From: Ruminococcus bromii
GTDB taxonomy: Bacteria; Bacillota; Clostridia; Oscillospirales; Acutalibacteraceae
DNA length: 64,000 nucleotides
Assembly (NCBI RefSeq): GCF_002834225.1
Contig: NZ_NNSR01000028.1
Location: 1 to 64,000 of the forward strand
Reading direction: 5' to 3'
Below, in pieces: positions 11,398 through 53,133 of this stretch; the stretch's first letter is position 1; every line of letters begins with the position of its first letter. A model generated the notes under the pieces. The model ran no database searches. It saw only the letters and a program-made list of their open reading frames with translations, and was not told the origin of the DNA. The translations under genes and the position numbers were made by a program.

Positions 11398-13061
11398 ATG
11401 CCGTCACCTCCGCTCTGCATACGAACAAACACAAACAGCGTGTCGGCGTCATATTCCGTGGTGACATTTCCGCCGAGTTTTGTAATATCGTCAAGTAAAT
11501 CATCGGGAATTTTCATTTCATTTTTGCTGTCACAATTGATTTTTAAATCAATAAATTTATTATCAGCCTTTAAATTAAACAGCAACGCATCTGTGCAATT
11601 CATTTTGAGTCTTATAAATTCTCCGATAAATTTGAAGATTGCAATTGACTTTTCAGCGGATATTTCTCCCGATACATTGCTGAAAAACGAACAGGAAATT
11701 CCGTAAACAGAAATGTACTCGGCAAGTTCTCGGATACTGTTTTCAAGCTCAAAAGCATTCAGCATTTTTCTGCTTTTTGCCATAATGAACAGATTGCTTA
11801 TTCTCTTGATGTAAACATTCACAACACAGGCACGGGCATAATTGACCGAAATATCTCCGCTGTTATTTTCAATGTTTTTGAGTATATTTTCAAGGTCGCA
11901 AAGCTGCGGGCGGATAAATTCGGTTATGTTGTCATAGAGCTTGTTCTGTTCGGTTACTGCCGCTCTGCGTTTTTTCAGCTCTGCCTCTGATTTCAAGATT
12001 ACATTGTATTCTGAAATCTGTTCCTTAATCTCCGAAAGCTCTCTGTTAATTCGGTTAATTGCCGATATGTCTTCCGTCCAAACTGCCTTACCGCCTTTTA
12101 TATTATGCTTTTTAAGAATTATATTTTCATCAATCACAACGCTGTTACCGTTTTTCAGAACAACATTTTTTGAAACATTTGCCGCATTTTTTGAGCGGTA
12201 TTTCATATTGCCCTCATTGTCAAATATGAGAGCGTTAAGATTTGACGCATTGAAAAAATTGCCGTAACCCGTATTTGACGGCACAAGACCTATCTGAATA
12301 AGGCTTTCCCATAAAGCAATTGATGCAAAACAGAACACCTCGGGAACATTGTAAATTCTGAGTCCCGAATATCCGTGATTCAGATTGTTCCAAACGGTAT
12401 AAATTATTGCGACAAGAATTATTACAATCGGAATCCACAGCTTTTTGCGTGTTGCGGAAATTCTGCATTGATTGATTGAAAGCACAATTGACGAAAGCAC
12501 AAGTATAAAAATCCACACTACAATTACATAGTAAACAGGACCGTAGCTGTATTGTTTGTTCCAATTGTGAAAATCGGGTTCAAATACAAAAGCAAGCTGA
12601 TGTAAATCGTTTGTCATAACAAGCAGCACAAGAACGGCGGCAGGTATAATCAAAAGATATTTTCGGTTATTTGTATTTTCAGGCTTGCCTATATTCAGCG
12701 TTGCAAAAAACATCATAAGCGGCAAAAACACCATTGCTATGTAATATGAATACCAAAGGTACCGTCCGTATGTGTTGATGTCGGCAGGGCTGTTGTATTT
12801 TATGGCACGAAGAGCCATCCACAAGAGCATAAGCGTTGCGGATATCACAAGGCAGATTCTTATATTCTTCTGAACAATGCGATATGAAACAGACACACCC
12901 CAGCCTATAATAAGCCCCGAAAAAATAATAACATCAAAATTTTCCATATAATTATCTACTGAGGAAGTAAGATGAGAAAAAATTCTCACCGCACCGCCAA
13001 ACAGGAATATAATTATCCCGATAACAGTCAGAAGTTTTGTTTTGTCTACTTTGCGAACCAT
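11394..13061 (-). CDS. Multi-pass membrane sensor with degenerate kinase-like C-terminus
   Basis: 555 residues. The N-terminal half has about eight hydrophobic segments and resembles the 7TM sensor domain of some clostridial histidine kinases. The middle is a PAS-like segment (ALIFDNEGNMKYRSKNA) followed by a long helical region (about 340-400). The C-terminal 150 residues resemble a kinase core in layout but show no clear H box, N box or GxG ATP lid, so it may be a non-catalytic signal input subunit. It is the first gene of the operon and overlaps the true kinase by 4 bp, which suggests a complex of two sensors. The start has a GGTGG ribosome binding site. Confidence 0.65.
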   Translation of the reverse strand: MVRKVDKTKLLTVIGIIIFLFGGAVRIFSHLTSSVDNYMENFDVIIFSGLIIGWGVSVSYRIVQKNIRICLVISATLMLLWMALRAIKYNSPADINTYGRYLWYSYYIAMVFLPLMMFFATLNIGKPENTNNRKYLLIIPAAVLVLLVMTNDLHQLAFVFEPDFHNWNKQYSYGPVYYVIVVWIFILVLSSIVLSINQCRISATRKKLWIPIVIILVAIIYTVWNNLNHGYSGLRIYNVPEVFCFASIALWESLIQIGLVPSNTGYGNFFNASNLNALIFDNEGNMKYRSKNAANVSKNVVLKNGNSVVIDENIILKKHNIKGGKAVWTEDISAINRINRELSEIKEQISEYNVILKSEAELKKRRAAVTEQNKLYDNITEFIRPQLCDLENILKNIENNSGDISVNYARACVVNVYIKRISNLFIMAKSRKMLNAFELENSIRELAEYISVYGISCSFFSNVSGEISAEKSIAIFKFIGEFIRLKMNCTDALLFNLKADNKFIDLKINCDSKNEMKIPDDLLDDITKLGGNVTTEYDADTLFVFVRMQSGGDGI

Positions 13062-19536: not shown

Positions 19537-20211
19537 TTATTCAAGCTTTTCGGCAACCTCGCCAAGACGCTTGTAGATGCTGTTTTCGGGAACATAACCT
19601 CTTACAAACGAAAGCGGATAGATGTTGGTGTTTCTGCCGATTACCGAACCGGGGTTAAGAACGCTGTTGCAGCCTACCTCTACATGGTCACCGAGCATTG
19701 CACCGAACTTTTTAACATTTGTGTCAACCTTTTCGCCATCGCAAAGAACGGTTACAAGGCTCTTGTCACTCTTAAGGTTTGATGTGATTACACCTGCGCC
19801 TGTGTGTGACTTGTAGCCGAGAATACTGTCACCGATGTAGTTATAATGCGGAGTCTGAACACCGTCAAAAAGAATTGAATTTTTAAGCTCTGTTGAGTTG
19901 CCTACAACTGCACCTTTTCCGACAATTGCGTTGCCTCTGATAAAGGCGCACTGTCTGACCTCGGCATCTTCGCAGATAATGAGCGGTCCGCCGAGATATG
20001 CGGAGTCAAAAACCTTTGCACTCTTTGCAACCCACACATTTTCTTCCCTCTGTTCGTAGATTTCGGGATCAAGAGTTTTTCCGAGTTCAATGATAAATTC
20101 GCTTATTTTCGGAAGAGCCTCCCACGGATAATCAACGGTTTCAAGCAAGGGCTTTGCAATAGTCCTGCTGTAATCAAACAAATTTTTTGCCAGTAATTTT
20201 TCGTTTTCCAT
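19537..20211 (-). CDS. Left-handed beta-helix (hexapeptide) nucleotidyltransferase-like protein
   Basis: 224 residues. From about residue 55 on, it is built of hexapeptide turns (VWVAKSAKVFDSAYLGG, AFIRGNAIVGKGAVVGNS, AMLGDHVEVGCNSVLNPGSVIG). This is the C-terminal beta-helix of GlmU/sugar-1-phosphate nucleotidyltransferases without the N-terminal nucleotidyltransferase domain. Clostridial homologues are often labelled UDP-N-acetylglucosamine pyrophosphorylase, but the catalytic pyrophosphorylase domain is absent. Acyltransferase activity on a sugar or amino sugar is the safer inference. Confidence 0.7.
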   Translation of the reverse strand: MENEKLLAKNLFDYSRTIAKPLLETVDYPWEALPKISEFIIELGKTLDPEIYEQREENVWVAKSAKVFDSAYLGGPLIICEDAEVRQCAFIRGNAIVGKGAVVGNSTELKNSILFDGVQTPHYNYIGDSILGYKSHTGAGVITSNLKSDKSLVTVLCDGEKVDTNVKKFGAMLGDHVEVGCNSVLNPGSVIGRNTNIYPLSFVRGYVPENSIYKRLGEVAEKLE

Positions 20212-41721: not shown

Positions 41722-41731
41722 GGCATATTAT
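41722..41731 (+). promoter_or_regulatory. Candidate mother-cell sigma -10 box for cotJ
   Basis: GGCATATTAT, similar to the CATA-type -10 of sigma E/sigma K promoters, about 50 bp before cotJA. The cotJ operon of Bacillus is sigma E-dependent. The identical 10-mer precedes the recombinase gene (51326-51335). The -35 match is poor. Confidence 0.5.
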
Positions 41732-41779: not shown

Positions 41780-41980
41780 TTGGATATTAAAGAAATTATT
41801 TCTCAGCAGTACGGAATACCGAGTCTGCCAAAGAGAACGAGTGAGGCTATGGCATATGTTCCCTTTCAGCAGTTCGACTCCCCAACCTACAGCCCGTTGC
41901 AGGGACTTGAGTCGGGTACAATGTTTCCCGTTCTCAACAAACCATTCTACGGAAAGAAATGCGGTGAGGGACTTGACTGA
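41780..41980 (+). CDS. cotJA: Spore coat-associated protein CotJA
   Basis: 66 residues, starting at a TTG with AAGGAG 7 bp upstream. CotJA family: short, with FVPFQQF-like AYVPFQQFDSPTYSPLQGLESGTMFPVLNKPF. It is a component of the spore coat made in the mother cell. It overlaps cotJB by 17 bp. Confidence 0.92.
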   Translation: MDIKEIISQQYGIPSLPKRTSEAMAYVPFQQFDSPTYSPLQGLESGTMFPVLNKPFYGKKCGEGLD

Positions 41981-42227
41981 AAGAGAAATTCTTTTAAAGA
42001 AAATTTCAACCTACGAATTTGCCGCACTTGACCTTCAGATTTATCTTGACACTCATCCGCACGATACGGCAATGATACAAAAAATGAACGGTTTCAAAGA
42101 AAAATTGAAACCGCTTGTTGAAGAATATGAAGAAAAATTCGGTCCTTTGAAAAAGAGTATGACAAGCACCAATATGTGGTGCTGGATAAAGGGACCGTGG
42201 CCGTGGGAAAACGAGGAGGATTGCTGA
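41964..42227 (+). CDS. cotJB: Spore coat protein CotJB
   Basis: 87 residues. Start GTG at 41964 (GGAAAG upstream), overlapping cotJA; an in-frame TTG at 41976 is possible. CotJB pattern: EREILLKKISTYEFAALDLQIYLDTHPHDTAMI ... CWIKGPWPWENE. Its stop overlaps the cotJC ATG (TGATG), so the three genes are translationally coupled. Confidence 0.92.
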   Translation: MRDLTEREILLKKISTYEFAALDLQIYLDTHPHDTAMIQKMNGFKEKLKPLVEEYEEKFGPLKKSMTSTNMWCWIKGPWPWENEEDC

Positions 42228-42325
42228 TGTTCGTCTATGAAAAAAAGTTACAGTACCCCGTCAATATCAAAAAACCGAACGCAAAGCTTGCCAAGATTAT
42301 CATAACGCAATACGGCGGTGCGTAA
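42227..42325 (+). CDS. cotJC: cotJC 5' segment (split by the inserted element)
   Basis: ATG at 42227 with AGGAGG ribosome binding site. Codons 1-31 read MFVYEKKLQYPVNIKKPNAK then LAKIIITQYGG, the normal N-terminus of CotJC, a manganese-catalase-like spore coat protein. After the recombination core two element-derived codons follow (GCG, TAA), so the frame stops at 32 residues. Joined to the 3' segment at 52594 it becomes a 210-codon gene. See the element and finding entries. Confidence 0.92.
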   Translation: MFVYEKKLQYPVNIKKPNAKLAKIIITQYGGA

Positions 42326-42335
42326 GGCAAAATGT
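42310..42335 (+). other. attL of the cotJC element
   Basis: Core ATACGGCGGT (42310-42319), also present at 52584-52593. To its right the element-side arm CGTAAGGCAAAATGT (42321-42335) is the inverted partner of the arm at the other end. Confidence 0.85.
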
Positions 42336-42343
42336 GATACTTT

Positions 42344-43231
42344 TTATTTTCGTATAACATCCCGATAAAAATCAATAAACGCATTAAGTGCAGGAGATTT
42401 CCACTTGTTTTTGTGGATAAGCAACTGCGTCCACACCGAAACATCACAATCGTTGACGGGAAGATGTTTTATCTCTCCCGAATTGTAGTAATCCTCCGTG
42501 ATGAAATCAGGCAAGAACGAGATCATTTTGCTGTTTTTGATTAGAGAACAAATTTGTAGAGGGTTTCCTATTTCCAAAACAGGGTGAATTTCAATCGATT
42601 GTGCGGCAAGTTCATTGTTGAGCAATTTTCTGTAGCTCATATTACTTTCGGTCAGTACAAAATCCTCGGTGCATAATTCTTTTAGCGAAATATTTTCTTT
42701 ATTCAAAAGTGGATTGTCAACTGATGCAAAGAAGTGAACCTTTTCCTCATGCTCTGCACAAATTATAAATTCCGAATCATAAATGTGGCTGTCAAGAGTA
42801 AAAATCAAATCAACCTCATTTTTGCGTAACATATCAAACATCTGCTCTGTACCGCTTTCGACAACGACAAGGTGAATATTAGGAAAATGCTTTCTGAACT
42901 CAAGAAAATCATCTTTAAAAAACCGGTTGCAGACAGAACTTGACATTGCAAGGCGAATGTTGCCCTCAATTGTTTCGGGGGTACGCAAATCTTCAAGCAT
43001 CTTTTCGTGAGATTCAAGAATTTCTCTTGCGTGTTGCAGAACCGTTATGCCGTCGGAAGTCAGGCTGATTCTGTGGTAAAAGCGGTCAAAAAGCACCGTG
43101 TTAAGCTCGCTTTCCAACTGTTTTATCTGTGATGAAACGGTTGACTGGGTATAGCCGAGCTTTTCCGCTGCAGCAGAAAATCCCGAATATTCGCACACAG
43201 CTACAAAGGTTTTAAGCACATTGGTATCCAT
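42344..43231 (-). CDS. LysR-family transcriptional regulator
   Basis: 295 residues from the ATG at 43231 (MDTNVLKTFVAVCEYSGFSAAAEKL) with AGAGGAT ribosome binding site. N-terminal LysR helix-turn-helix (LGYTQSTVSSQIKQLESEL) and a substrate-binding domain. It is divergent from the NSS transporter, with overlapping promoters, the usual LysR-target arrangement. Its stop lies 18 bp from the left att arm, so it is the first element gene. Confidence 0.92.
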   Translation of the reverse strand: MDTNVLKTFVAVCEYSGFSAAAEKLGYTQSTVSSQIKQLESELNTVLFDRFYHRISLTSDGITVLQHAREILESHEKMLEDLRTPETIEGNIRLAMSSSVCNRFFKDDFLEFRKHFPNIHLVVVESGTEQMFDMLRKNEVDLIFTLDSHIYDSEFIICAEHEEKVHFFASVDNPLLNKENISLKELCTEDFVLTESNMSYRKLLNNELAAQSIEIHPVLEIGNPLQICSLIKNSKMISFLPDFITEDYYNSGEIKHLPVNDCDVSVWTQLLIHKNKWKSPALNAFIDFYRDVIRK

Positions 43232-43267
43232 AACTAAATCCTCTTTTATACGAACGATATCTTCGTT

Positions 43268-43318
43268 ATTATAGCACAGCTTTATCAATTTTACAAATGG
43301 TATTTTATTTGCTATACT
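43268..43318. promoter_or_regulatory. Divergent promoters of lysR and the NSS transporter
   Basis: Plus strand TTTACA, 17 bp, TATACT (43290-43318) for the transporter. Minus strand TTGTAA, 17 bp, TATAAT (about 43268-43296) for lysR. The -35 regions overlap, which suits joint LysR control. Confidence 0.65.
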
Positions 43319-43356
43319 ACTCTTTGTATTGCAAAATAAACAAAGGAGCAGTATTT

Positions 43357-43413
43357 ATGACGAAAAAATATTGTGTAGATAAAATAAATTCGGCAGGAGG
43401 ACTTGTGTTGTGA
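43357..43413 (+). CDS. Upstream 18-codon frame coupled to the NSS transporter
   Basis: ATG with AAAGGAG reads MTKKYCVDKINSAGGLVL and TGA. Its stop (TGA at 43411) overlaps the GTG start of the transporter (43410), and it contains that gene's AGGAGG site. It may be a coupling leader peptide. Confidence 0.4.
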   Translation: MTKKYCVDKINSAGGLVL

Positions 43414-44744
43414 ATCGTGAAAAATTAGGAAGCCGACTCGGATTTATAATGCTTTCGGCAGGCTGTGCAATCGGTTGCGGAAATGTGTGGAAGTTTCCGT
43501 GGATGTGCGGACAATACGGTGGCGGAAGTTTTATGCTTGTGTACATCATCTGTCTTATTGTTTTGGGAATTCCGTGTTTGATAATGGAATTTTCGGTGGG
43601 CAGAGCGGCACAGACAAGTCCGATTAAAATGTACCGCAAACTTGAAAAGCCAAAGCAAAAATGGGGCGGTTTCGGTTGGGCATGCCTTGTGGGCAACCTT
43701 GCAATTATGGCTTTTTACACAGTTGTTTGCGGTTGGATAATTTACTACTTCATAAATTTTCTGACGGGTAACAACCGTGACCTCGGATTTACCACAATGA
43801 TTGCAAATCCGTCAGTCAATGTTATTTTTATGATGATAACGGTTGTTATCGCCTTTGTTATACTCTCGTTCAACATTCAGGGCGGACTTGAGAGGATAAC
43901 AAAATATATGATGATTGCTTTGCTTGCACTTATGATTGTGCTTGCAATCCACAGTCTGTTTTTGAGCGGTTCGGGTGAGGGTATGACATTTTACCTCAAA
44001 CCCGACTTTTCAAAAATCAACGGTGATGTTGTTGTGGGTGCGATGAATCAGGCATTTTTCTCGCTGTCAACAGGTATGGGCGGTATGGCTATTTTCGGAA
44101 GTTATATCGGCAAAGACCATTCACTTATGGGCGAGGCAATCAATGTTATCTCTCTTGACACACTCGTAGCTCTGCTTGCAGGCATAATCATTTTCCCTGC
44201 CTGCTTTACTTACAACCTTGAAGTTAATTCAGGTCCGAACCTTTTGTTTGACACAATGGCAACCGTGTTCAACAATATGCCCGGCGGAAGAATATGGGGT
44301 TCGCTCTTCTTCCTGTTTATGGTGTTTGCGGCAATGTCAACCGTTTTGGGTGTTTGCGAAAATATTCTTGCAATGATTCGTGATTTGACAGGCTGGTCAA
44401 GAATAAAAGGCAGTCTTATTTGCGGAATTGTAGTGTTTGTGCTTGCACTCACAACGGCTCTCGGATTCAGCGTTCTTCATTTTCAGCCGTTTGCAGAGGG
44501 TACAACATGGCTTGATTTTTGGGACTTCATTGTTTCCACAAATGTTCTTCCTCTCGGTTCTCTTGTGCTTGCTCTGTTCTGTTGCAACAAGTTCGGCTGG
44601 GGTTGGGATAACTTCATTAAAGAAGCCAACATGGGCATCGGTATGAAAGTGCGTTCGTGGATGAAACCGATTTTCAAATATGTAGTTCCTACAGCTATCG
44701 CATTTATCTATGTTTACGGACTCGTCACCTTTAAATGGCAATAA
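43410..44744 (+). CDS. Sodium-dependent amino-acid/neurotransmitter symporter family (NSS)
   Basis: 444 residues, GTG start with AGGAGG. Eleven to twelve transmembrane segments. NSS signature in helix 1: GFIMLSAGCAIGCGNVWKFPW, with the unwound substrate/sodium site, and FSLSTGMGGMAIFGSYI in helix 6. Bacterial members take up amino acids such as tryptophan, tyrosine, methionine or alanine; the substrate here is not clear. Divergent from a LysR gene. Confidence 0.93.
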   Translation: MNREKLGSRLGFIMLSAGCAIGCGNVWKFPWMCGQYGGGSFMLVYIICLIVLGIPCLIMEFSVGRAAQTSPIKMYRKLEKPKQKWGGFGWACLVGNLAIMAFYTVVCGWIIYYFINFLTGNNRDLGFTTMIANPSVNVIFMMITVVIAFVILSFNIQGGLERITKYMMIALLALMIVLAIHSLFLSGSGEGMTFYLKPDFSKINGDVVVGAMNQAFFSLSTGMGGMAIFGSYIGKDHSLMGEAINVISLDTLVALLAGIIIFPACFTYNLEVNSGPNLLFDTMATVFNNMPGGRIWGSLFFLFMVFAAMSTVLGVCENILAMIRDLTGWSRIKGSLICGIVVFVLALTTALGFSVLHFQPFAEGTTWLDFWDFIVSTNVLPLGSLVLALFCCNKFGWGWDNFIKEANMGIGMKVRSWMKPIFKYVVPTAIAFIYVYGLVTFKWQ

Positions 44745-44766
44745 ATAAAATTTGATACACAAAATA

Positions 44767-44802
44767 AAATCCGTATGGAGCAATCTTCATACGGATTTTT
44801 TC
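44767..44802. terminator. Terminator after the NSS transporter
   Basis: AAATCCGTATG / CATACGGATTT stem followed by TTTTT on the plus strand; it also faces the converging acetyltransferase remnant. Confidence 0.75.
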
Positions 44803-44805
44803 GGT

Positions 44806-45090
44806 TTAAATATTCATTTCCTTGTATTCTCTGTAGGTTTTGAATCCTACGGAATCGTAAAACTTCATTGCACCCTCGTTAAATTCCCACACATCAAGTT
44901 CCAGCCTGTCAAAGCCTCTGTCCTTAGCCTCTTGTTTGCAGAAATTTATCAGCTTGGTTGCAACACCCATTCTGCGGAAGTTTTCATCAACTCCGAATTC
45001 TGCAATCTGATAGAATTTTCTCTGCAAACCGTACGGAGATTTCTCCTTGACTATGTATTCAACAGTTGCAAATCCGCATTCAATTTTCCA
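44806..45090 (-). pseudogene. GNAT acetyltransferase remnant, 5'-truncated
   Basis: The open frame begins after a TAA at 45091-45093 and has no start codon until an internal TTG. It reads WKIECGFATVEYIVKEKSPY, then FGVDENFRRMGVATKLINFC with the acetyl-CoA loop, ending FYDSVGFKTYREYKEMNI. This is the C-terminal two-thirds of a GNAT protein. The N-terminal part is missing, and cysE begins just beyond. Confidence 0.75.
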
Positions 45091-45103
45091 TTAAAGCGTA
45101 AGC

Positions 45104-46033
45104 TTAAATCATCCAATACCAATACTTGTCCTGATTGTTTTCCGAAAGGTCGGGGCTGAACTGGAGTTCGGGGTTTTTAATGCTTACTTTCATACCCTCG
45201 GTAATTGAGTTCACAATAAAGGCATTACCGCCGATTGTTGCACCCTTGCCGATTACGGTTTCACCGCCGAGAATAGTTGTACCCGAATAGATTGTAACAT
45301 TATCACGGATAGTAGGATGTCTTTTAACACCTTTAAGCTGCTGACCTTTTCTTGTTGACAACGCACCGAGGGTTACACCCTGATAGATTTTTACATTCTC
45401 GCCTATCTCGGTAGTTTCACCGATTACGATGCCTGTACCGTGGTCGATGAAAAAATACTTGCCGATTGTCGCACCCGGGTGAATATCAATTCCCGTAAGT
45501 CCGTGTGCATACTCCGAAAGCACTCTCGGAATCATCGGGATTTTAAGCTTCCACAATTCATGTGCCACTCTGTAAACCGTGATTGCAAAAAATCCGGGAT
45601 AGCAAAGAATGATTTCATCCGTACTGTATGCGGCAGGATCGCCGTTAAAGGCCGCAACAACATCTGTTGCAAGGTAATCGCGGATTGACGGAATCTTTGA
45701 GAGAAACTCATAAACCAACTTTTCTGACTTTTCCATAACCTCATCATATGAAAGGTCGTTGCACTTTTCGCAGCCCTTTAAAGCCTTTGCAATCTGTTTT
45801 TTAAGGTTGTACTGAATAAATTCTATTCTGTCGCCTACAATATAGCCGATGTATTCTTCTCTTACTCTGTTCTTGTCAAAGTAGCCCGGAAACAACAGCT
45901 TGCGGATTTCTTCAAGCACATGAATAAGCACAGATTTGTTGATAATGTTATCCTCCGAAAGTCTGCAAGTCTGTTCATGCTTTGAATAGCTTTCGAGAAT
46001 TTCATTGACTGTTTTATTTATATTATCATTCAT
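45104..46033 (-). CDS. cysE: Serine O-acetyltransferase (EpsC/CysE type)
   Basis: 309 residues. Makes O-acetylserine for cysteine synthesis from serine and acetyl-CoA. The N-terminal 170 residues are the long helical extension of the EpsC group. The hexapeptide domain has [44 protein letters not shown], with the catalytic His/Asp pair, and [15 protein letters not shown]. Its start overlaps maf by 8 bp. Location inside an excisable element is odd for such an enzyme. Confidence 0.95.
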
Positions 46034-46589
46034 ATGAATACTCCTTTTTCAAAATCCTGTTTAATTCACTTACGGGAAGTCCGACAACATTAAAATAGTC
46101 GCCGTCAATCTTCTTTACAAGCAGAGAACCTTTGCCCTGTATTCCGTATGCACCTGCCTTGTCAAAAGGCTCGCCCGTTGCAATGTACTCCTCAATTTCC
46201 GAATCGGAAAGTTCAAAAAATTCAACAAGCGTTACATTGGAAAATGATTTTGCAACACCGTTTTTGACGGTACAACAACCCGTGATAACCTTGTGCTGTC
46301 TGCCCGAAAGCAGCTTTAACATATTCTCGGCATCTTCCCTGTTCTTAGGTTTGCCGAGCATTTTTCCGTCAACAAAAACTCCCGTGTCACAACCGATTAC
46401 AATATCTTTTTCATAGCCGTTTTTTGAAATATACAATGCCTTTTTGACGGCAAGATATTCGGGACGCTTTTCAAGCGGAACATTGTTCTCAACCGTTTCG
46501 TCAATGTCTGCGGGAACAATTTTAAAATCGGTTGTTATAAAACTTAAAAGCTCTTTTCTTCGTGGTGAAGCAGATGCAAGTACAATCAT
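46026..46589 (-). CDS. maf: Maf-family nucleotide pyrophosphatase
   Basis: 187 residues. Maf/YhdE nucleoside triphosphate pyrophosphatase. Signature: [12 protein letters not shown] at the N-terminus, [17 protein letters not shown] and [25 protein letters not shown]. Removes non-canonical nucleotides. Overlaps cysE by 8 bp, so the two are cotranscribed. Confidence 0.95.
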
Positions 46590-46720
46590 AATCTATCTCC
46601 GTAAAATTACTTTTGACTATTGTAACATAAAACCGAAATAAATAAAAGATGATTATACAAAAAACACAAAATGTACAGCAATAATCAGCTATTCGGATTG
46701 ACCGCACTCCGCACTTTGTA

Positions 46721-46749
46721 TTGACAATAATTTTGCAAAGTGCTATATT
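46721..46749 (+). promoter_or_regulatory. Sigma-A promoter of the CobW GTPase
   Basis: TTGACA, 17 bp, TATATT, about 60 bp upstream of the ATG at 46808. Confidence 0.75.
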
Positions 46750-46807
46750 TAAGGACAGCGGTAATCCGCATAAAATAAGCACAATTCAACGAAGGGAAAT
46801 GAAATAT

Positions 46808-48091
46808 ATGGCTAACATTAAGCTTCCTGTTCCCGTAACGCTTCTTACAGGTTATCTCGGTGCAGGCAAAACTACTCTTATCAACCATGTCCTCGGCAAT
46901 CAGGAGGGCTACAAATGTGCCGTTATCGTAAACGATATCGGTGAAGTAAACATTGACGCAGAGCTTATTCAAAAGGCAGGCGTTGTTACTCAGAAAGATA
47001 CAAACCTTGTTCCGCTTACAAACGGCTGTATCTGCTGTACTTTGAGCGTTGACCTTATCAACCAGATTACAGACCTTGTAAAGTCAGGCAAGTTTGACTA
47101 CATTCTCATTGAGGCAAGCGGTATTTGCGAACCCCTTCCGATTGCACAGTCAATCTCAGTTCTTGAGGGCGATAAGGAAAACAATATACCGGAGCTTGTC
47201 CGTCTTGACAACATTGTTACAGTTGTTGACGCACTCCGTATGGCAACGGAATTTGGCTGCGGTGATGATCTCCTCAAGGAAGATGTTGACGAAGAGGATG
47301 TTGAAAGTCTTCTTATCCAGCAGATTGAGTTCTGTTCAACAATCATCCTCAACAAGGTTGACAAGGTAACAGAGGAACAGCTCAAGAGAGTTAAGGCTAT
47401 GATTAAGACACTTCAGCCAAAGGCACGAATTATTGAATCACAGTTCGGCAAGGTTGAAGTTAAGGATATTCTCGATACAAAGTGCTTTAATTTTGAAGAA
47501 ACAGCCGCATCCGCAGGTTGGGCTCAGATTTATGATAAGGATGAAGATGACGAGGATACAGACCGTCACGGTCATCATCACCACCATCACCACCACGATG
47601 AAGACCATGACGAACATGAGCATCACGATCATGACAATGATGAGGACGGTCTTGACCACTCTCATTGCGACCACGAACACGGTCATTGCTGTCACCACGA
47701 CCACGATCATGAGGACGGCGAAGAAGAATACGGCATCGGTTCATTTGTTTACCACCGCATTCGTCCTTTCAATCAGGACAAGCTCCAGCAGTTTGTTGAG
47801 AACTGGCCAAAGAGCGTAGTCCGTGCAAAAGGTGTTCTCTGGTTTGATGACAAGAGAGAAGATGTTTATGTATTCGAGCAGGCAGGCGTTCAGATTACTG
47901 CTACGGAACAGGGCAAGTGGCTTGCCGCATTCCCAAAGAAACAGCAGAAGCTCTATCTTGCAGAGTATCCCGATATGGCTGAAAAGTGGGACGAAAAATA
48001 CGGTGACAGAGAAATCAAGCTTGTATTCATCGGTCAGCATATGGACAGGCACGCAATTGTTGACGCACTTGACGAGTGTCTTTCAGACTGA
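46808..48091 (+). CDS. CobW-family GTPase with His-rich metal loop
   Basis: 427 residues from the ATG at 46808 (MANIKLPVPVTLLTGYLGAGK), with AAGGG upstream. COG0523/CobW G domain: Walker A GYLGAGKTT, the metal-binding GCICC motif (NGCICCTLS), LIEASGICEP and NKVD. A histidine/aspartate-rich stretch (about 255-310) follows, then the CobW C-terminal domain (GVLWFDDKREDVYVFEQAG). Such proteins are zinc or other metal chaperones. No Zur site was confirmed at its promoter. Confidence 0.93.
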   Translation: MANIKLPVPVTLLTGYLGAGKTTLINHVLGNQEGYKCAVIVNDIGEVNIDAELIQKAGVVTQKDTNLVPLTNGCICCTLSVDLINQITDLVKSGKFDYILIEASGICEPLPIAQSISVLEGDKENNIPELVRLDNIVTVVDALRMATEFGCGDDLLKEDVDEEDVESLLIQQIEFCSTIILNKVDKVTEEQLKRVKAMIKTLQPKARIIESQFGKVEVKDILDTKCFNFEETAASAGWAQIYDKDEDDEDTDRHGHHHHHHHHDEDHDEHEHHDHDNDEDGLDHSHCDHEHGHCCHHDHDHEDGEEEYGIGSFVYHRIRPFNQDKLQQFVENWPKSVVRAKGVLWFDDKREDVYVFEQAGVQITATEQGKWLAAFPKKQQKLYLAEYPDMAEKWDEKYGDREIKLVFIGQHMDRHAIVDALDECLSD

Positions 48092-48111
48092 TAAAATCTT
48101 ATAAAAATTGA

Positions 48112-48142
48112 GGGCAACGGAATCCGCTGCCCTTGTTTTTTT
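48112..48142 (+). terminator. Terminator of the CobW gene
   Basis: GGGCAACGG / CCGCTGCCC stem followed by TTGTTTTTTT. Confidence 0.7.
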
Positions 48143-48158
48143 GTTGGATATACAAAAA

Positions 48159-48183
48159 CGGCAGTCCGATTTGGACTGCCGAA
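48159..48183 (-). terminator. Terminator of the lipoprotein gene
   Basis: CGGCAGTCC / GGACTGCCG stem followed by TTTTTG on the minus strand. Confidence 0.7.
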
Positions 48184-48205
48184 ATTTTTGCACCGTTAAG
48201 TTTTA

Positions 48206-48595
48206 TTACTTTGATGACTCTGTTGTTGATGCCTCAGGCTTGAAGTTAGCGTCAAATGTGAAAACGAGCTTTGTACCATCTTTTTCCATTGTAATAACAC
48301 CGTCTTTGAGTGTGTATGGAATGCTCTCGCCGTCTGCTGTAAAGTTCTTGTCATCGTATGTGAGCTCCTGCTCCTGACCGGCTGCAGAAAGCTTAGCCTT
48401 GCCGTCTTCTTTAAGAAGAATGTAGCCTTTGTCCATACCGACAGCGGCAAGAGTACTGCTGTCAAAGCTCATACCGCTTGCTTCTGCACTTGTAAGCTTG
48501 TAATAGCCGAGTGTTGAATTACCGCAAGCTGTAAGTGAAAGCACCATAAGAAGTGCCATAACAGCCGCAACGCTGATTGTGAAAATTCTTTTCAT
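48206..48595 (-). CDS. Small lipoprotein
   Basis: 129 residues. Signal peptide with lipobox (LSLTACGN, Cys at about residue 24), so exported and lipid-anchored. The mature part is beta-rich (GYYKLTSAEASGM, AKLSAAGQEQELTYDDKNF, DGVITMEKDGTKLVFTF), like small clostridial DUF-type lipoproteins. Single gene with its own terminator; function unknown. Confidence 0.8.
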   Translation of the reverse strand: MKRIFTISVAAVMALLMVLSLTACGNSTLGYYKLTSAEASGMSFDSSTLAAVGMDKGYILLKEDGKAKLSAAGQEQELTYDDKNFTADGESIPYTLKDGVITMEKDGTKLVFTFDANFKPEASTTESSK

Positions 48596-48766
48596 TTGTT
48601 TTTCCTCCGTTTTCCTTATCGGGATTTCTCATTTTTTCAGGCTTTGTGCCTTTGTCAGTGAATGACACGATTATTATAGCACAATGGCATAAACTTTTCA
48701 AGGTTATTTGTAAAAATATGTAAAAAAGCACCCTTTCGAGTGCTTTCCTAACCTAATATTCAGTTA

Positions 48767-49564
48767 TCAGTTGAACCTTGACAAAAATACCTGGGTTCTT
48801 GGATTTTGCGGATTGTTGATTACCTGTTCGGGAGTGCCTTCTTCGGCGATTACACCGTCAGCCATAAAAATGATCTTGTCGGCAACATCTCTTGCAAACT
48901 CAATTTCGTGAGTTACAACAATCATTGTGCTGTCGGAGGTTTTAAGACTGCGGATAACATTAAGCACCTCACCCGTGAGTTCGGGATCAAGTGCGGAGGT
49001 AGGCTCGTCAAAGCAGAGCACATCGGGATTGAGTGCAAGCGCTCTTGCAATTGCAACACGCTGTTGCTGACCGCCGCTGAGATTACAAGGATATGACTCG
49101 CTCTTTTCGGAAAGTCCTACCCTTTCAAGCAAAGACTTCGCATTGTTCTTGATAATTTCAAGTGCCTCTTTATAGCTTTTTGCGCCCATATATTCGCCTG
49201 TCTGCTTTATCTGCTCTTTTGCGGCAAGCTTTGGAGCAAGCATAATATTCTCGATAACCGTATATTGCGGAAACAGGTTAAATGACTGGAACACAAGTCC
49301 GAAGTGAAGCCGTCTTTTTCTGATTTCGCTGTCGCTCTTTGCAGAGCTGTCATTGCTGTCAAAAAGCACCTTGTCATTGACGGAAATCTTGCCGTTGCCC
49401 GGAGTTTCAAGAAAATTAAGACACCTTAACAGCGTAGTCTTGCCAGATCCCGATGAGCCGATAATCGCAAGCACCTCACCCTTTTTAAGAGAAAAGCTGA
49501 TATCTTTCAAAACCTCTGTTTTGCCGTAGCTTTTGCGGATGTTTTCAACATTTAACAAAGACAT
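48767..49564 (-). CDS. Polar amino-acid ABC transporter, ATP-binding protein
   Basis: 265 residues. Walker A GSSGSGKTT, signature LSGGQQQRVAIARALAL, Walker B VLCFDEPTSALDPE. Typical GlnQ/TcyC-type ATPase of the polar amino-acid uptake family. It is last in a three-gene operon behind the permease (12 bp gap). Confidence 0.95.
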   Translation of the reverse strand: MSLLNVENIRKSYGKTEVLKDISFSLKKGEVLAIIGSSGSGKTTLLRCLNFLETPGNGKISVNDKVLFDSNDSSAKSDSEIRKRRLHFGLVFQSFNLFPQYTVIENIMLAPKLAAKEQIKQTGEYMGAKSYKEALEIIKNNAKSLLERVGLSEKSESYPCNLSGGQQQRVAIARALALNPDVLCFDEPTSALDPELTGEVLNVIRSLKTSDSTMIVVTHEIEFARDVADKIIFMADGVIAEEGTPEQVINNPQNPRTQVFLSRFN

Positions 49565-49576
49565 AACCTTTCCCCC

Positions 49577-50227
49577 TTAACCCTTGTAGTAATCAAGCTT
49601 TTTCTCGATAAATGAGAAAAGCAAGGTAAGAATTCCGCAGAATGCGAGGAAGAATACTGCCGAATAGAAAAGCGGCCAGATGAGTCCCTGCATTGAGAAG
49701 TCCTTTGCTCTCATAAGAATTTCCGGAATTGCGATAACGCTTGAAAGCGAAGTATCCTTTACAAGAGTAATAATTTCGTTGCCCATGGGTGCAGTAATTT
49801 TCTTTACAACCTGCAAAAGAACAACCTTAAAGAAAATCTGACCCTTTGTCATGCCGAGCACCTGACCTGCCTCGTACTGTCCCTTTGGAACAGACTCGAT
49901 ACCGCCACGGAAGATTTCAGAAAAATATGCGGCATAATTGATTATAAATGCGATAAGTGCGGCATTCATTCGTGCAAATGTCACACTGCCGTTTGACACA
50001 AGCGGCGGAACATAGAACACTACGAAAAGCTGGAGCATCAGCGGAGTACCTCTGATTATCCACACAAATGTTTTTGTCAGCCATTTTAACGGCTTGAATT
50101 TTGACATTGAACCCATTGAGATAATAAGTCCGAGCGGAATTGCCGCAAGCAGGGTTACAATGAAAATTATACAGTTTTCTCCGAATCCCTCAAGCAACTG
50201 ACCGCTTACATTAAAAAATTGATCCAT
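49577..50227 (-). CDS. Polar amino-acid ABC transporter, permease
   Basis: 216 residues from the ATG at 50227 (MDQFFNVSGQLLEGFG); a TTG at 50248 would add seven residues. HisM/GlnP-type permease with about five transmembrane segments and the EAA motif (GQYEAGQVLGMTKGQIFFKVVLLQVVKK). It is followed at 12 bp by its ATPase and preceded by a terminator hairpin after the binding protein gene, which suits lower permease expression. Confidence 0.93.
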   Translation of the reverse strand: MDQFFNVSGQLLEGFGENCIIFIVTLLAAIPLGLIISMGSMSKFKPLKWLTKTFVWIIRGTPLMLQLFVVFYVPPLVSNGSVTFARMNAALIAFIINYAAYFSEIFRGGIESVPKGQYEAGQVLGMTKGQIFFKVVLLQVVKKITAPMGNEIITLVKDTSLSSVIAIPEILMRAKDFSMQGLIWPLFYSAVFFLAFCGILTLLFSFIEKKLDYYKG

Positions 50228-50319
50228 TTTATATACCACTCTATCCAAGTATTTTCAGTTTTGAATATATCAAAAGGCTTACAAATTTGAACCTGTAAAT
50301 TTATAATCAATAAAAAGCA

Positions 50320-50345
50320 CAACGGGCGAACATAGTCCGCCCTGT
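50320..50345 (-). terminator. Intra-operon hairpin between binding protein and permease
   Basis: ACAGGGCGGAC / GTTCGCCCGT stem with a short loop and a GCTTTTTATT tract on the minus strand. It would reduce transcription into the permease and ATPase genes. Confidence 0.6.
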
Positions 50346-50369
50346 ATGTACAAGCTTATTTTAATTAAA

Positions 50370-51182
50370 TTATTTCTTTTTTACAAGAAGAAGATCCTGA
50401 AGGCTGTACTTCTCTGCAATCTTATCAAGTGTGCCGTCATCGGCAACTGCCTGAATAGCATCGTTAAGCTTTTTGAGTGTTTCGGGGCTGTCCTTACGAA
50501 GTGCAATACCGTACTGCTCAGGTGAAAAGTCCTTGCCGTCAACAACCTTGAGGTCAGAATAATCCGAACCGCTCTTGAGTGTACCGATTGACATTACATA
50601 GTCGATAACCGCAACATCTGCTGTGCCTGACTTAACCTCGAGAAGGGCCTTAGCCTGTGCGTCAACTGAAACATACTTTGCACTTGAGAAGAACTCGTCT
50701 GTCTGAGCAACAGTTTCACCTGCTGACTTCTTCTCTGCAACTACTGTCTTATCCTTGAGGTCATCTGCTGACTTGATTTTGTCTGCAACATCAGATTTTG
50801 CAACCATAACCTGCTTGTTTTCCATATAAGGAGTTGAAATATCCATTGTTGACTTTCTGTCGTCATCAATTGTAAGACCGTTCCAGATGCAGTCGATTGT
50901 CTTTGAGTTAAGCTCAACTTCTTTTGAATCCCAGTCAATTTTCTGGAACTTTGGAGTAACGCCCATTTTCTCGCAAACTGCCTCTGCAAACTCAGTTTCA
51001 AAACCTGTAAGCTTGCCGTCTGCATCGAGGTAGTTCATCGGCTCAAAATATGTAACACCGATAACAAGCTCTCCCTTGTTTGAGATATAATCCCAGTCCG
51101 TTGCAGAAGAACCGCAACCTACAAAAATTGACGCTGACATTGCACCTGCAAGAAGTACAGAAAGTAACTTTTTCTTTTTCAT
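50370..51182 (-). CDS. Polar amino-acid ABC transporter, substrate-binding lipoprotein
   Basis: 270 residues. Lipoprotein signal peptide (GAMSASIFVGCGSS). Bacterial periplasmic binding fold type II with GELVIGVTYFEPMNYLDADGKLTGFETEFAEAVCEKMG and DCIWNGLTIDDDRKSTMDISTPYMEN. Substrate is a polar amino acid. The nearness of cysE invites a cystine/cysteine assignment, but that is only inference. Promoter at 51255-51283. Confidence 0.92.
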   Translation of the reverse strand: MKKKKLLSVLLAGAMSASIFVGCGSSATDWDYISNKGELVIGVTYFEPMNYLDADGKLTGFETEFAEAVCEKMGVTPKFQKIDWDSKEVELNSKTIDCIWNGLTIDDDRKSTMDISTPYMENKQVMVAKSDVADKIKSADDLKDKTVVAEKKSAGETVAQTDEFFSSAKYVSVDAQAKALLEVKSGTADVAVIDYVMSIGTLKSGSDYSDLKVVDGKDFSPEQYGIALRKDSPETLKKLNDAIQAVADDGTLDKIAEKYSLQDLLLVKKK

Positions 51183-51254
51183 AATTATTCCTCCGTAATC
51201 TGATATACTCTCTACCTATGTTCTGCAAATCACCTTGCAAAACAACCTCTGTAT

Positions 51255-51283
51255 ATTATACATTAGTGCGTTAGCAAAGTAAA
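51255..51283 (-). promoter_or_regulatory. Sigma-A promoter of the ABC transporter operon
   Basis: TTTACT, 17 bp, TATAAT on the minus strand. Confidence 0.7.
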
Positions 51284-51306
51284 GTGTTTTCGAGAAATTT
51301 GCCGAA

Positions 51307-51335
51307 GAATTTTCTTCCAATCGCAGGCATATTAT
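51307..51335 (+). promoter_or_regulatory. Candidate mother-cell promoter of the recombinase
   Basis: GAATTTT, 14 bp, CATATTAT resembles a sigma E promoter (ATATT-type -35, CATA-type -10). The -10 region GGCATATTAT is identical to the one before cotJA. No good sigma-A promoter was seen for the recombinase. Confidence 0.45.
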
Positions 51336-51371
51336 TGCATAAAAGAATTATTACTGCAAGAGGTGGCTAAT

Positions 51372-52574
51372 TTGTCTGATTATTACAACCAAAATCACTA
51401 TGCGGCGGCATACATAAGGGTGTCAACCGAAAATCAAACGGAGCTTTCACCGTCAAGCCAGCTGAAAATCATCAGAAAATTTGCAGATGAAAAAGGCTAT
51501 CTGATTGATGAGGATTTCATTTTTCGTGACAACGGAATTTCGGGAAGATATGCCGACAAGCGACCCGAATTTAACCGAATGATAAGCCTTGCAAAGCAAA
51601 AGCCTCCCATGTTTTCAGCTGTACTTGTCTGGAAATTTTCACGATTCGCCCGCAATCAGGAGGAAAGCATTTTCTATAAATCGCTGTTGAGAAAAAACGG
51701 TATTGAAGTCATCAGCGTGTCCGAACCCGTTGATGACGGACCTTTCGGCAAGCTGATTGAACGCATTATCGAATGGTCGGACGAATACTATTCGATTCGG
51801 CTTTCGGGTGAGGTAAGGCGAGGAATGACCGAAAAAGCCGAGCGTGGCGGCATCGTCAGCATTGCACCCTTTGGCTATAAAGTGACAGGCGGAAGGCTTG
51901 TGGTTGACGCTGAAAAAGCCCGGATCGTCAGTAAAATTTTTGCCGATTTTTTGAATAATAAAGATATAAATATGATTTGTGACAACTTGAACTCAGCAAA
52001 AATTAAAACTTCCAAAGGCAATAATTGGGATTGCCGTGCCGTTGAATACATTTTGCAAAATCCCGTTTATGTCGGCAAAATCAGGTGGAATCCAATCTGC
52101 AAAACGGGCAGAGATTTCTATAACGAAAATTTGATAATTTCAAACGGCATTCACGAACCGATTGTTGATGAAGTAATTTTTGAACAAACAAGGCAAATAT
52201 TATTCTTGCAAAGAATAATAGGCAAAGAACATTCCCATAAACAAACTGAAATCAGACACCTTATTCAAAATCTTGTCAAGTGTTCAAACTGTAATTCAAC
52301 CCTCGTTCCGATTAAAAATAATTTTCTCCAATGCTCCGCCTACATTCACGGCAACTGCCATTCATCGCACAGCGTAAGAATTGAAAAGATTGAAAAAGTT
52401 GTAATTAAAGCAATCAATATTCTTATAAAGAATAATTTAATCAATGATGCTTTCACGATTAAAGAAACTTATCCCTTAAAAACGCAAAACGACTTACTAT
52501 CCATAATTATAAAAAGAATAATATTTGACCGCAAAGCCTCCCACCTCAACATATTTCTCAGTCAAAATAAGTAA
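51372..52574 (+). CDS. Serine site-specific recombinase of the cotJC element
   Basis: 400 residues. I prefer the TTG at 51372 (MSDYYNQNHYAAAYIRVST), because AGAGGTGG lies 6 bp upstream; a GTG at 51363 is the alternative. Resolvase catalytic domain with the nucleophile Ser in YIRVSTENQ, and the conserved AVLVWKFSRFARN. The recombinase domain (GGIVSIAPFGYKVTGG ... YILQNPVYVGKIRW) and a zinc ribbon (CSNCNSTL ... CSAYIHGNCHSSH) follow. It is shorter than phage large serine integrases; the coiled coil is reduced. Its TAA is 9 bp from the right core site. Presumed to excise the element, like SpoIVCA in skin. Confidence 0.92.
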   Translation: MSDYYNQNHYAAAYIRVSTENQTELSPSSQLKIIRKFADEKGYLIDEDFIFRDNGISGRYADKRPEFNRMISLAKQKPPMFSAVLVWKFSRFARNQEESIFYKSLLRKNGIEVISVSEPVDDGPFGKLIERIIEWSDEYYSIRLSGEVRRGMTEKAERGGIVSIAPFGYKVTGGRLVVDAEKARIVSKIFADFLNNKDINMICDNLNSAKIKTSKGNNWDCRAVEYILQNPVYVGKIRWNPICKTGRDFYNENLIISNGIHEPIVDEVIFEQTRQILFLQRIIGKEHSHKQTEIRHLIQNLVKCSNCNSTLVPIKNNFLQCSAYIHGNCHSSHSVRIEKIEKVVIKAINILIKNNLINDAFTIKETYPLKTQNDLLSIIIKRIIFDRKASHLNIFLSQNK

Positions 52575-52593
52575 CATTCTGCCATACGGCGGT
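52574..52593 (+). other. attR of the cotJC element
   Basis: Element-side arm ACATTCTGCCATACG (52574-52588) and core ATACGGCGGT (52584-52593). The arm matches the inverted left arm at 13 of 15 positions, centred on GCGGTG in the joined attP. Confidence 0.85.
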
Positions 52594-53133
52594 CCGGACG
52601 GTGAGTTGGGTGCATCATTACGATATCTGAGTCAACGATTTGCAATGCCATTGCCAGAACTCAAAGGCACTCTCACCGACATAGGCACAGAAGAACTTAA
52701 TCATCTTGAAATGATCGGTGCAATAGTATATCAGCTGACGAAAGACCTCACCGAGGATGAAATCAAGGAACAGGGATTCGGTGACTATTTTGTTGACCAC
52801 ACAACCGGAATTTTCCCACAGGCGGCAGCAGGTTTTCCCTATACAGCTGCATCAATGCAGGTTAAAGGCGATCCGATAACCGATCTGCACGAAAGTATGG
52901 CGGCTGAGCAAAAAGCCCGAACAACCTACGATAACATCCTCAGATTCTGCGATGACTACGATGTAAAAGATCCGATTCGCTTTCTGCGTGCCCGTGAGGT
53001 TGTCCACTATCAACGCTTCGGCGAAAACCTCCGCCTCTTGACCGATAAACTCAACGAAAAGAACTTCTACGCCTTCAACCCCTCATTCGATAAAAAATGC
53101 TTTAAAAATGAATTGAAAAAGAAGAAAAAGTAA
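52585..53133 (+). CDS. cotJC: cotJC 3' segment
   Basis: The frame reads YGG then PDGELGASLRYLSQRFAMPL and on to a TAA at 53133, 183 codons with no internal stop or frameshift. It holds the ferritin-like manganese-catalase residues in TEELNHLEMIGAIVYQLTKD and the ending AREVVHYQRFGENLRLL. It has no start of its own; the apparent frame opened earlier at 52525 runs through the recombinase's end by chance. The first 31 codons are at 42227-42319. An intact sequence without a start argues for selection on the rejoined gene. Confidence 0.93.
   Translation, partial: YGGPDGELGASLRYLSQRFAMPLPELKGTLTDIGTEELNHLEMIGAIVYQLTKDLTEDEIKEQGFGDYFVDHTTGIFPQAAAGFPYTAASMQVKGDPITDLHESMAAEQKARTTYDNILRFCDDYDVKDPIRFLRAREVVHYQRFGENLRLLTDKLNEKNFYAFNPSFDKKCFKNELKKKKK

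Follow-up and report, generated by a model that had tools for sequence, protein, structure and literature searches.

A Putative Intervening Element in the Spore Coat Gene cotJC of Ruminococcus bromii and the Interruption of cotJC at Several Sites in Other Bacteria

Sporulation Genes Interrupted by Intervening Elements

Published intervening elements have been described within the sporulation genes sigK, spsM, spoVFB, gerE, and yabG (PMC5595907; PMC10747680). With skin, which resides in sigK, and SPbeta, which resides in spsM, excision by a serine recombinase rebuilds the sporulation gene (PMC5025042; PMC4191935). The element gin, found within gerE of Bacillus cereus ATCC10987, is reported to be a serine recombinase element without phage genes that splits a sporulation gene, is bounded by a short shared sequence, CATCTCAAA, and is removed in sporulation (PMC5595907). 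The elements yin, in yabG of Clostridium botulinum, and vfbin, in spoVFB, are presented as sporulation-gene intervening elements that carry a recombinase and a putative small recombination directionality factor (RDF) (PMC10747680). An element-encoded RDF is a common but not a defining feature of these elements; it is reported for SPbeta, the skin element of Clostridioides difficile, and gin itself (PMC5595907). A prophage attachment site beside a CotJC-type gene is on record for phi027 of C. difficile R20291 (PMC11222575; PMC12122855). The present analysis concerns the spore coat gene cotJC of Ruminococcus bromii (assembly GCF_002834225.1, hereafter G000; 2.15 Mb in 74 contigs) in the window, the whole 64,000-nucleotide stretch analyzed (positions 1-64,000 of contig NZ_NNSR01000028.1), where a gap of 10,274 bp separates codons 31 and 32.

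We propose, with a probability of about 0.8, that this segment interrupts cotJC as an intervening element and is excised in the sporulating mother cell to restore the gene. The split is precise and in frame, the recombinase is conserved, an isolate carries the same split, and both halves of the gene are under strong selection. Relatives with an uninterrupted gene exist, other breaks recur at sites that each have their own recombinase family, and the genome holds sporulation genes. From these we infer excision, the cell type in which it would occur, and its timing.

The Split cotJC Gene

The relevant features of the window are as follows.

41780..41980, forward strand: cotJA, with a TTG start; recognized by its translation and used as the CotJA query
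41964..42227, forward strand: cotJB, 87 amino acids, its GTG start picked by the analyst; an open reading frame (ORF) of the same length precedes cotJC in locus L139
42227..42319, forward strand: 5' part of cotJC, codons 1-31, from the sequence and joined translation
42310..42319, forward strand: left crossover core, ATACGGCGGT, an exact repeat of the right core in the same register
51363..52574, forward strand: large serine recombinase (LSR), 403 amino acids, lacking the coiled-coil segment; Resolvase, Recombinase, and zinc-ribbon domains by Pfam, with alignments
52584..52593, forward strand: right crossover core, ATACGGCGGT, an exact repeat of the left core in the same register
52594..53133, forward strand: 3' part of cotJC, codons 32-210 and stop, with no start codon of its own; from the joined translation and substitution counts

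The coordinates, frame, and core proposed in the first-pass annotation, including the 10,274-bp length, were all confirmed. Translation of codons 1-31 joined to positions 52594-53133 yields a single protein of 210 amino acids with no internal stops, in agreement with the earlier claim that the 3' part contains neither stop nor frameshift and has no start. The joined product belongs to the Mn-catalase/CotJC family (PF05067, E 1.4e-49 in a Pfam search), as expected if crossover restores a normal CotJC. Thus, a sporulation gene is interrupted with both parts intact and joinable in frame, and a short identical end sequence lies inside the coding frame, as in other sporulation-gene intervening elements. 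The recombinase gene, said previously to abut the right site, stops 9 bp short of the right core. The likeness drawn at that time to skin and spsM/SPbeta is supported by the split gene, the shared core, and the element-borne serine recombinase. With cotJA and cotJB, both named from sequence, lying directly 5', the gene occupies its place in a cotJA-cotJB-cotJC operon.

The core sits on codons 29-31 (Y-G-G), and its position exceeds chance, being at the identical codon and register on both sides with a best out-of-frame match of 3 nucleotides. The 10-mer by itself was rejected as significant: it occurs three times in the window and 17 times in the G000 genome, which is weak evidence. Its copy at 33447 was rejected as a third site, as it falls within a feoB-like gene (named by eye). 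No back-up cotJC was found in G000; the two halves are its sole CotJC matches at E<=0.001.

Conservation of the Split and Selection on Both Halves

The closest named match to the window is the isolate R. bromii 5AMG, whose recombinase is 96% identical. Both of its cotJC halves are found on one contig; 12,222 bp separate the cores, and the flanks are collinear. Genome G033 has the same junctions as the window, and G066 the same left junction, its contig stopping 5 bp beyond the right core. Mis-assembly of a metagenome-assembled genome was considered and rejected, since the isolate has the same split and codon-31 breaks with the pieces on one contig and strand occur in five further strains, viz. 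Anaeromassilibacillus senegalensis An867, Mobilitalea sibirica DSM 26468, Pseudoflavonifractor gallinarum DSM 107456, Pseudoflavonifractor phocaeensis An569, and Acutalibacter 1XD8-36.

Decay of the 3' segment or of the recombinase in relatives with the split, which the first-pass annotation had named as telling against its proposal, was not found. Between the 3' parts of G000 and G033 there are 33 synonymous changes and one non-synonymous change (ratio of non-synonymous to synonymous rates, dN/dS, 0.006); the counts are eight and one between G000 and 5AMG (0.032) and 33 and two between 5AMG and G033 (0.013). The 5' parts of the four split genomes show synonymous differences only, and dN/dS of the LSR is 0.096-0.14 across six pairs. 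Across a larger sample, nearest-pair dN/dS had a median of 0.083 for 24 genomes with a split gene and of 0.059 for 26 with an intact one, with a maximum of 0.162 in both; codons near junctions were excluded, and misaligned ends inflate some of the split values, e.g., that of G022. Such strong purifying selection on a 3' part lacking a start means that cotJC must be made whole at some time. To judge from these substitution patterns, a complete cotJC is almost certainly still formed and, by analogy with skin, gin, and yin, most likely arises by mother-cell excision.

cotJC as a Target at Several Sites

CotJC was sought in 118 genomes, with most partial matches fetched, and tallies were made on the 72 genomes of the same genus, including G000. 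The gene is uninterrupted in 35 of the 72, interrupted at one or two sites in 26, unclear in three (G048, G050, and G064, owing to contig ends or unlisted matches), and without a CotJC match of the required quality in eight. As a control, spoIVA is full length in 64/72, partial in six, and not found in two. The expectation that relatives would hold an uninterrupted cotJC with the same core was thus borne out as to the uninterrupted gene; the exact ATACGGCGGT was present in two of the 27 uninterrupted loci in which the site was located, the others having variants.

At least three insertion sites are recognized: A at codon ~31 (8/72), B at codon ~63, and C at codon ~136, with only one end of the break on a contig in many genomes. 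Sites A and B are both interrupted in G009, for which the 5' cotJC piece was not found in 32 kb upstream, and in G099 and G105, of other families, B and C are interrupted on one contig, leaving cotJC in three pieces. The in-register core was longer than every out-of-frame match at 11/11 site-A, 9/10 site-B, and 2/4 site-C pairs (the other two site-C pairs being ties), the pairs counted being those on one contig apart from G022 and L214. Elements with both ends on one contig span 2.2-16.7 kb; in strain An867 (G119), the cotJC pieces are ~53 kb apart.

Each site is tied to its own LSR family, as judged by sequence identity. A genome scan based on an alignment of site-A LSRs confirmed 573 places. 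At 71 of the best 80, a piece of cotJC with its break at codon 31 lies no more than 2.5 kb from the LSR (the 3' part near in 42, the 5' part in 32), and two of the remaining nine (L150 and L197) show one under looser rules; this family appears nearly dedicated to cotJC. In IMG/VR contigs, from which host DNA is frequently trimmed, a cotJC fragment accompanies the LSR in 21 of the best 80. Long site-A-type LSRs (>=44% identity) occur in 12 of the 118 genomes, in addition to a 143-residue fragment in G045, and a cotJC break lies beside nine of the 12, none being shown for G043, G049, and G087. Site-B-type LSRs (>=57% identity) occur in 16 genomes, each with the B break, and site-C-type LSRs (>=46% identity) in 12, ten with the C break; G097 and G002 (partial LSR) are without it.

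A fourth break at codon ~176 is probable from the ends of the matches. At 13 loci, of which L192 and L300 come from a single genome, a good CotJC match breaks off between codons 175 and 183, in most cases at the motif QRFGE. In L195, where alone both ends were seen (11615-12058 and 20065-20172), the tail, comprising codons 172-207, follows after 8 kb; at the other 12, no tail was found in the DNA examined. Besides L195 and L300, these loci are L077, L114, L170, L176, L181, L192, L201, L210, L230, L246, and L284; G105, which is among them, may have cotJC in four pieces.

Several further arrangements were encountered. An extra last piece (codons ~134-208) and a shorter scrap lie beside an uninterrupted cotJC in L083 (G032:C1), and two copies of this last piece lie ~5 kb apart in L084 (G018:C97), as if elements had come or gone repeatedly. 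Contigs end or start at or near a cotJC break at L070:9886-9900 (G066:C73) and L128:31 (G005:C103); joined and split DNA mixed in the sequenced population would give such ends, as could chance. On contig C1 of G122 (P. phocaeensis An569; L304, L307, and L318), the last of three cotJC pieces is on the opposite strand, and hence plain excision could not join the gene in the assembled order. Finally, spoIVA of G072 is found in two parts, C36:3656-4888 (residues 1-411) and C15:30072-30326 (residues 408-492), with a serine recombinase gene at C15:28515-29501 near the second; this is possibly another interrupted sporulation gene.

The Recombinase and Its Directionality

The window LSR has the domains of large serine integrases, and S21, which we take to be its nucleophile, is invariant in 11 aligned LSRs. 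Of the 162 site-A LSRs that have a complete ORF, 156 have 118-139 residues between the zinc domain and the terminal motif; this interval is 47 residues in the LSRs of the window, 5AMG, G033, G066, and L139, and 73 in L213. In L143, the segment absent from the window LSR aligns to the last portion of the sequence from the A118 integrase structure, presumably the part that carries its coiled coil. By these alignments, the window LSR lacks the coiled-coil motif usual in large serine integrases, a structural peculiarity that goes beyond the first-pass annotation, as does the finding (below) that the element does not resemble a prophage. Three changes are required to explain the short form on a tree of 40 LSRs, the bootstrap of which had not fully settled; L139 is sister to L143, and the R. 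bromii clade groups with L138 and L147, L138, L147, and L143 all being full length. With the LI integrase, a close relative of that of A118, the coiled coil is reported normally to block attL x attR recombination, and its removal to permit this reaction weakly (2.2%) without an RDF (PMC10754689).

In this part of the tree, an ORF of ~65-115 amino acids lies upstream of the LSR on the opposite strand at 12 of 13 coiled-coil loci (L136-L149 without L139), four of the 12 (L143, L145, L146, and L147) being seeds of the search profile; the exception is L141, with 2.9 kb of DNA examined. It was not found in any of the five elements whose LSRs are of the short (47-residue-interval) form, nor at most loci elsewhere in the family. 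By its size, position, and co-occurrence, this ORF is RDF-like. A family-wide link between coiled coil and RDF was rejected, as the RDF-like ORF was seen within 6 kb upstream in 35/91 genome loci and 62/169 overall, many loci having less than 6 kb of DNA upstream. A second small-ORF family (seven loci) may serve other LSRs. None of 38 public homologs of the RDF-like ORF has an informative name.

Outside the element, G000 encodes a divergent RDF-like homolog of 63 amino acids (C69:61034-61222; 33% identity over 57 residues). Its gene is present in three of 116 genomes (G000, G033, and G066) and in 5AMG, the profile that found it including rows from several of the genomes that it then detected. 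Pairwise, the copies differ by 3-8 synonymous differences and 2-7 non-synonymous codons, so that constraint on this gene would be weak at best. Its confinement to one clade makes it one evolutionary event.

Element Content

The cargo comprises a regulator, transporters, and metabolic genes, with the recombinase at the right end.

42344..43288, reverse strand: LysR-type regulator (PF03466 and PF00126)
43410..44744, forward strand: transporter of the sodium:neurotransmitter symporter family (PF00209)
44806..45027, reverse strand: GNAT acetyltransferase remnant of 73 amino acids (PF00583; phrog_3810); 158 amino acids in R. bromii 5AMG (L135:1490-1966)
45104..46033, reverse strand: serine O-acetyltransferase, cysE (Hexapep; SATase_N slightly below cut-off)
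46026..46589, reverse strand: maf (PF02545, E 1.1e-60)
46721..48091, forward strand: CobW-type GTPase (PF02492 and PF07683)
48206..48595, reverse strand: small lipoprotein (by eye), with no Pfam family
48767..49564, reverse strand: ABC transporter ATPase (PF00005)
49577..50248, reverse strand: ABC transporter permease (PF00528)
50370..51182, reverse strand: solute-binding protein family 3 (PF00497)

Comparison of the 11 element ORFs with PHROGs and Pfam revealed no recognizable phage structural, lysis, or replication genes. The LSR was the sole ORF in a PHROGs phage category (integration and excision); the others had no match or matched unknown-function, acetyltransferase, or ABC-transporter families, and their Pfam domains are metabolic. 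The GC content of the segment is 0.412, compared to 0.418 and 0.319 in the left and right flanks. A maf gene (E<=1e-15) was detected in 99/116 genomes and cysE (E<=1e-40) in 36/116; the single maf copy of G000, G033, and G066 is inside the element, and these genomes carry cysE only there. Within the R. bromii clade the cargo differs, parts of its left portion being absent from G066 and ~2 kb being extra in 5AMG. Phage-type genes lie near related LSRs, namely those for a helicase and a single-stranded DNA (ssDNA)-annealing protein in L136, an exonuclease in L162, and an endolysin on the viral contig L216; the L139 element is 2.2 kb with a tail-fiber-like relic.

On contig C67 of the related genome G029 (L073 and L401; 31 kb), the DNA on the element side of the break in cotJC includes pnp, amylosome-type genes for dockerin-bearing proteins, and a gene for an rRNA methyltransferase. 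The 5' half of cotJC was not found upstream of the LSR to the contig end; the element here may be very large, or the chromosome may have been rearranged. Elsewhere in the window, an ORF at 4955-6127 has many tandem NNMGYQQNGMPMQ-type repeats between zinc-ribbon-looking cysteine pairs (by eye).

Sporulation Context

In B. subtilis, the cotJ genes belong to the mother cell. Two boxes with identical letters were noted in the window.

41723..41731, forward strand: GCATATTAT, a CATAnnAT box ~50 bp upstream of cotJA; similar boxes precede cotJA in many relatives (by eye)
51327..51335, forward strand: GCATATTAT, upstream of the LSR gene

The first is possibly a mother-cell promoter -10, a CATAnnAT box at this place being, we assume, that of a sigma-E (mother-cell) promoter, and its recurrence hints at shared control of cotJA and the LSR gene. 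The second lies within a stretch mostly conserved in four genomes, with A as its first letter in one. RCATATTAT occurs six times in the window vs. 1.75 expected, and a search with a sigma-E-like regular expression found nothing useful. G000 has a full-length spoIVA above cut-off and sigE/sigK-type genes, though the latter fall below the cut-off of the sigK model. R. bromii L2-63 is reported to form heat- and air-resistant spores, and 5AMG to lack three of the 73 L2-63 sporulation genes (PMC5814915).

Proposed Mechanism and Alternatives

On mother-cell excision, the element would have integrated by site-specific recombination at the Y-G-G codons 29-31 and been retained in the germ line. The LSR, made in the mother cell, would recombine the two ATACGGCGGT-centered sites, releasing a circle and restoring cotJC so that it can serve the coat. 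Carrying maf, cysE, and the transporters, the circle would then be lost along with the mother cell, and as this cell dies, the loss of the circle would be harmless. The element of the R. bromii clade seems domesticated, with no recognized phage genes, host-type genes inside, and an LSR lacking the coiled coil. As there is no RDF-like gene inside and the LSR has no coiled coil, excision may be RDF-independent or use the 63-residue protein.

A number of observations weigh against this proposal. The 35 uninterrupted genomes and the eight without a CotJC match of the required quality indicate that sporulation can dispense with the element. A single insertion is common to the four R. bromii-clade genomes with the split, and hence the selection data represent one lineage. 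Neither the predicted circle junction nor the joined junction had a match in viral contigs. No RDF-like ORF was found in the G000 element, none scoring better than E 2.9 in a search that could recognize one small-ORF family. Deletion of the coiled coil is reported to kill the phiC31 integrase, leaving that of LI weakly active (PMC10754689).

A wider proposal is more tentative, and we rate it at somewhat short of an even chance. By it, cotJC would be a recurrent DNA-spliced gene of gut Clostridia, invaded by at least three recombinase families, each specialized on one conserved motif, and bearing one, two, or perhaps more excisable introns. The intron of the R. bromii clade would be host-captured, with its phage genes gone, the single-copy maf germ-line-only, the LSR stripped of its excision-blocking coiled coil, the RDF either lost or now encoded elsewhere on the chromosome, and excision under the control of host development.

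The alternative that fares best, albeit an improbable one, is ordinary reversible integration, by which low-frequency excision in growing cells would leave a joined cotJC in part of the population with no developmental control. It is in keeping with the phage-like relatives, both the IMG/VR contigs with a cotJC fragment and the endolysin, helicase, ssDNA-annealing protein, and exonuclease genes, and with the report that the excised form of yin is present at all time points (PMC10747680). The R. bromii element, however, is without recognized phage or RDF-like genes and holds the only maf, and its free loss from growing cells would cost the host genes; this is not decisive.

It is very unlikely that CotJC functions as two polypeptides from unjoined DNA, the 3' part being translated from the LSR transcript and assembling with the 31-residue piece. 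An ORF from a TTG at 52525 to 53133 exists, and the 3' part follows the LSR gene directly in the same orientation. Nevertheless, the breaks occur at three unrelated places, and two at once in G009, G099, and G105 would call for three-piece proteins; moreover, the two flanking cores have stayed in register, and the first 31 residues are probably too short to fold alone. That the insertion killed cotJC, its remains having yet to decay, is nearly refuted by the excess of synonymous over non-synonymous changes accumulated while split (33:1 and 8:1; p 2e-21 and 3e-5 in an equal-rate test) and by the conserved LSR, even though B. subtilis mutants lacking this coat protein are stated to have no apparent defect (PMC12122855) and eight of the 72 genomes have no CotJC match.

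Implications

Mother-cell excision at cotJC would bear on several matters. One coat gene is struck in at least three places by separate LSR families, in Ruminococcus, Oscillospiraceae, Acutalibacteraceae, and Lachnospiraceae, and annotations of cotJC as broken or missing in these bacteria may therefore be wrong. The question of why integrating elements pick genes expressed only in the mother cell becomes testable, and the LSRs lacking both a coiled coil and an accompanying RDF-like gene offer a natural experiment on directionality. R. bromii is a main starch degrader of the human colon; if the proposal is true, its mother-cell genome sheds named metabolic genes in development.

Comparison with Known Systems

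The R. bromii locus harbors a known kind of element; its target, cotJC, and the several sites therein are undescribed in the open-access literature found. Among the open-access matches listed, a scope outside which subscription papers and preprints fall, none describes an element within cotJC. With phi027, the CotJC-type gene is downstream of attR and is not split, and in the accounts of its attachment site developmental joining is not claimed (PMC11222575; PMC12122855). The yin element is described as prophage-like and unique, and the main text of that report does not mention cotJ (PMC10747680).

Of the described elements, gin offers a close parallel, but at 28.6 kb it is reported to have three recombinase genes, the RDF GirX, and a GC content below that of its genome, and is called exogenous (PMC5595907). 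The R. bromii element, in contrast, has a single LSR without a coiled coil, a host-like GC content, the only maf of its host, and cotJC as its target; no RDF-like gene was recognized inside it, and in this it also departs from SPbeta and the C. difficile skin. Both skin and SPbeta/spsM are prophages or prophage-like, with a sigma-factor gene or a spore-polysaccharide gene as target. Compared with these, cotJC is a coat gene with at least three sites and up to two proven interruptions at once, distributed over many genera.

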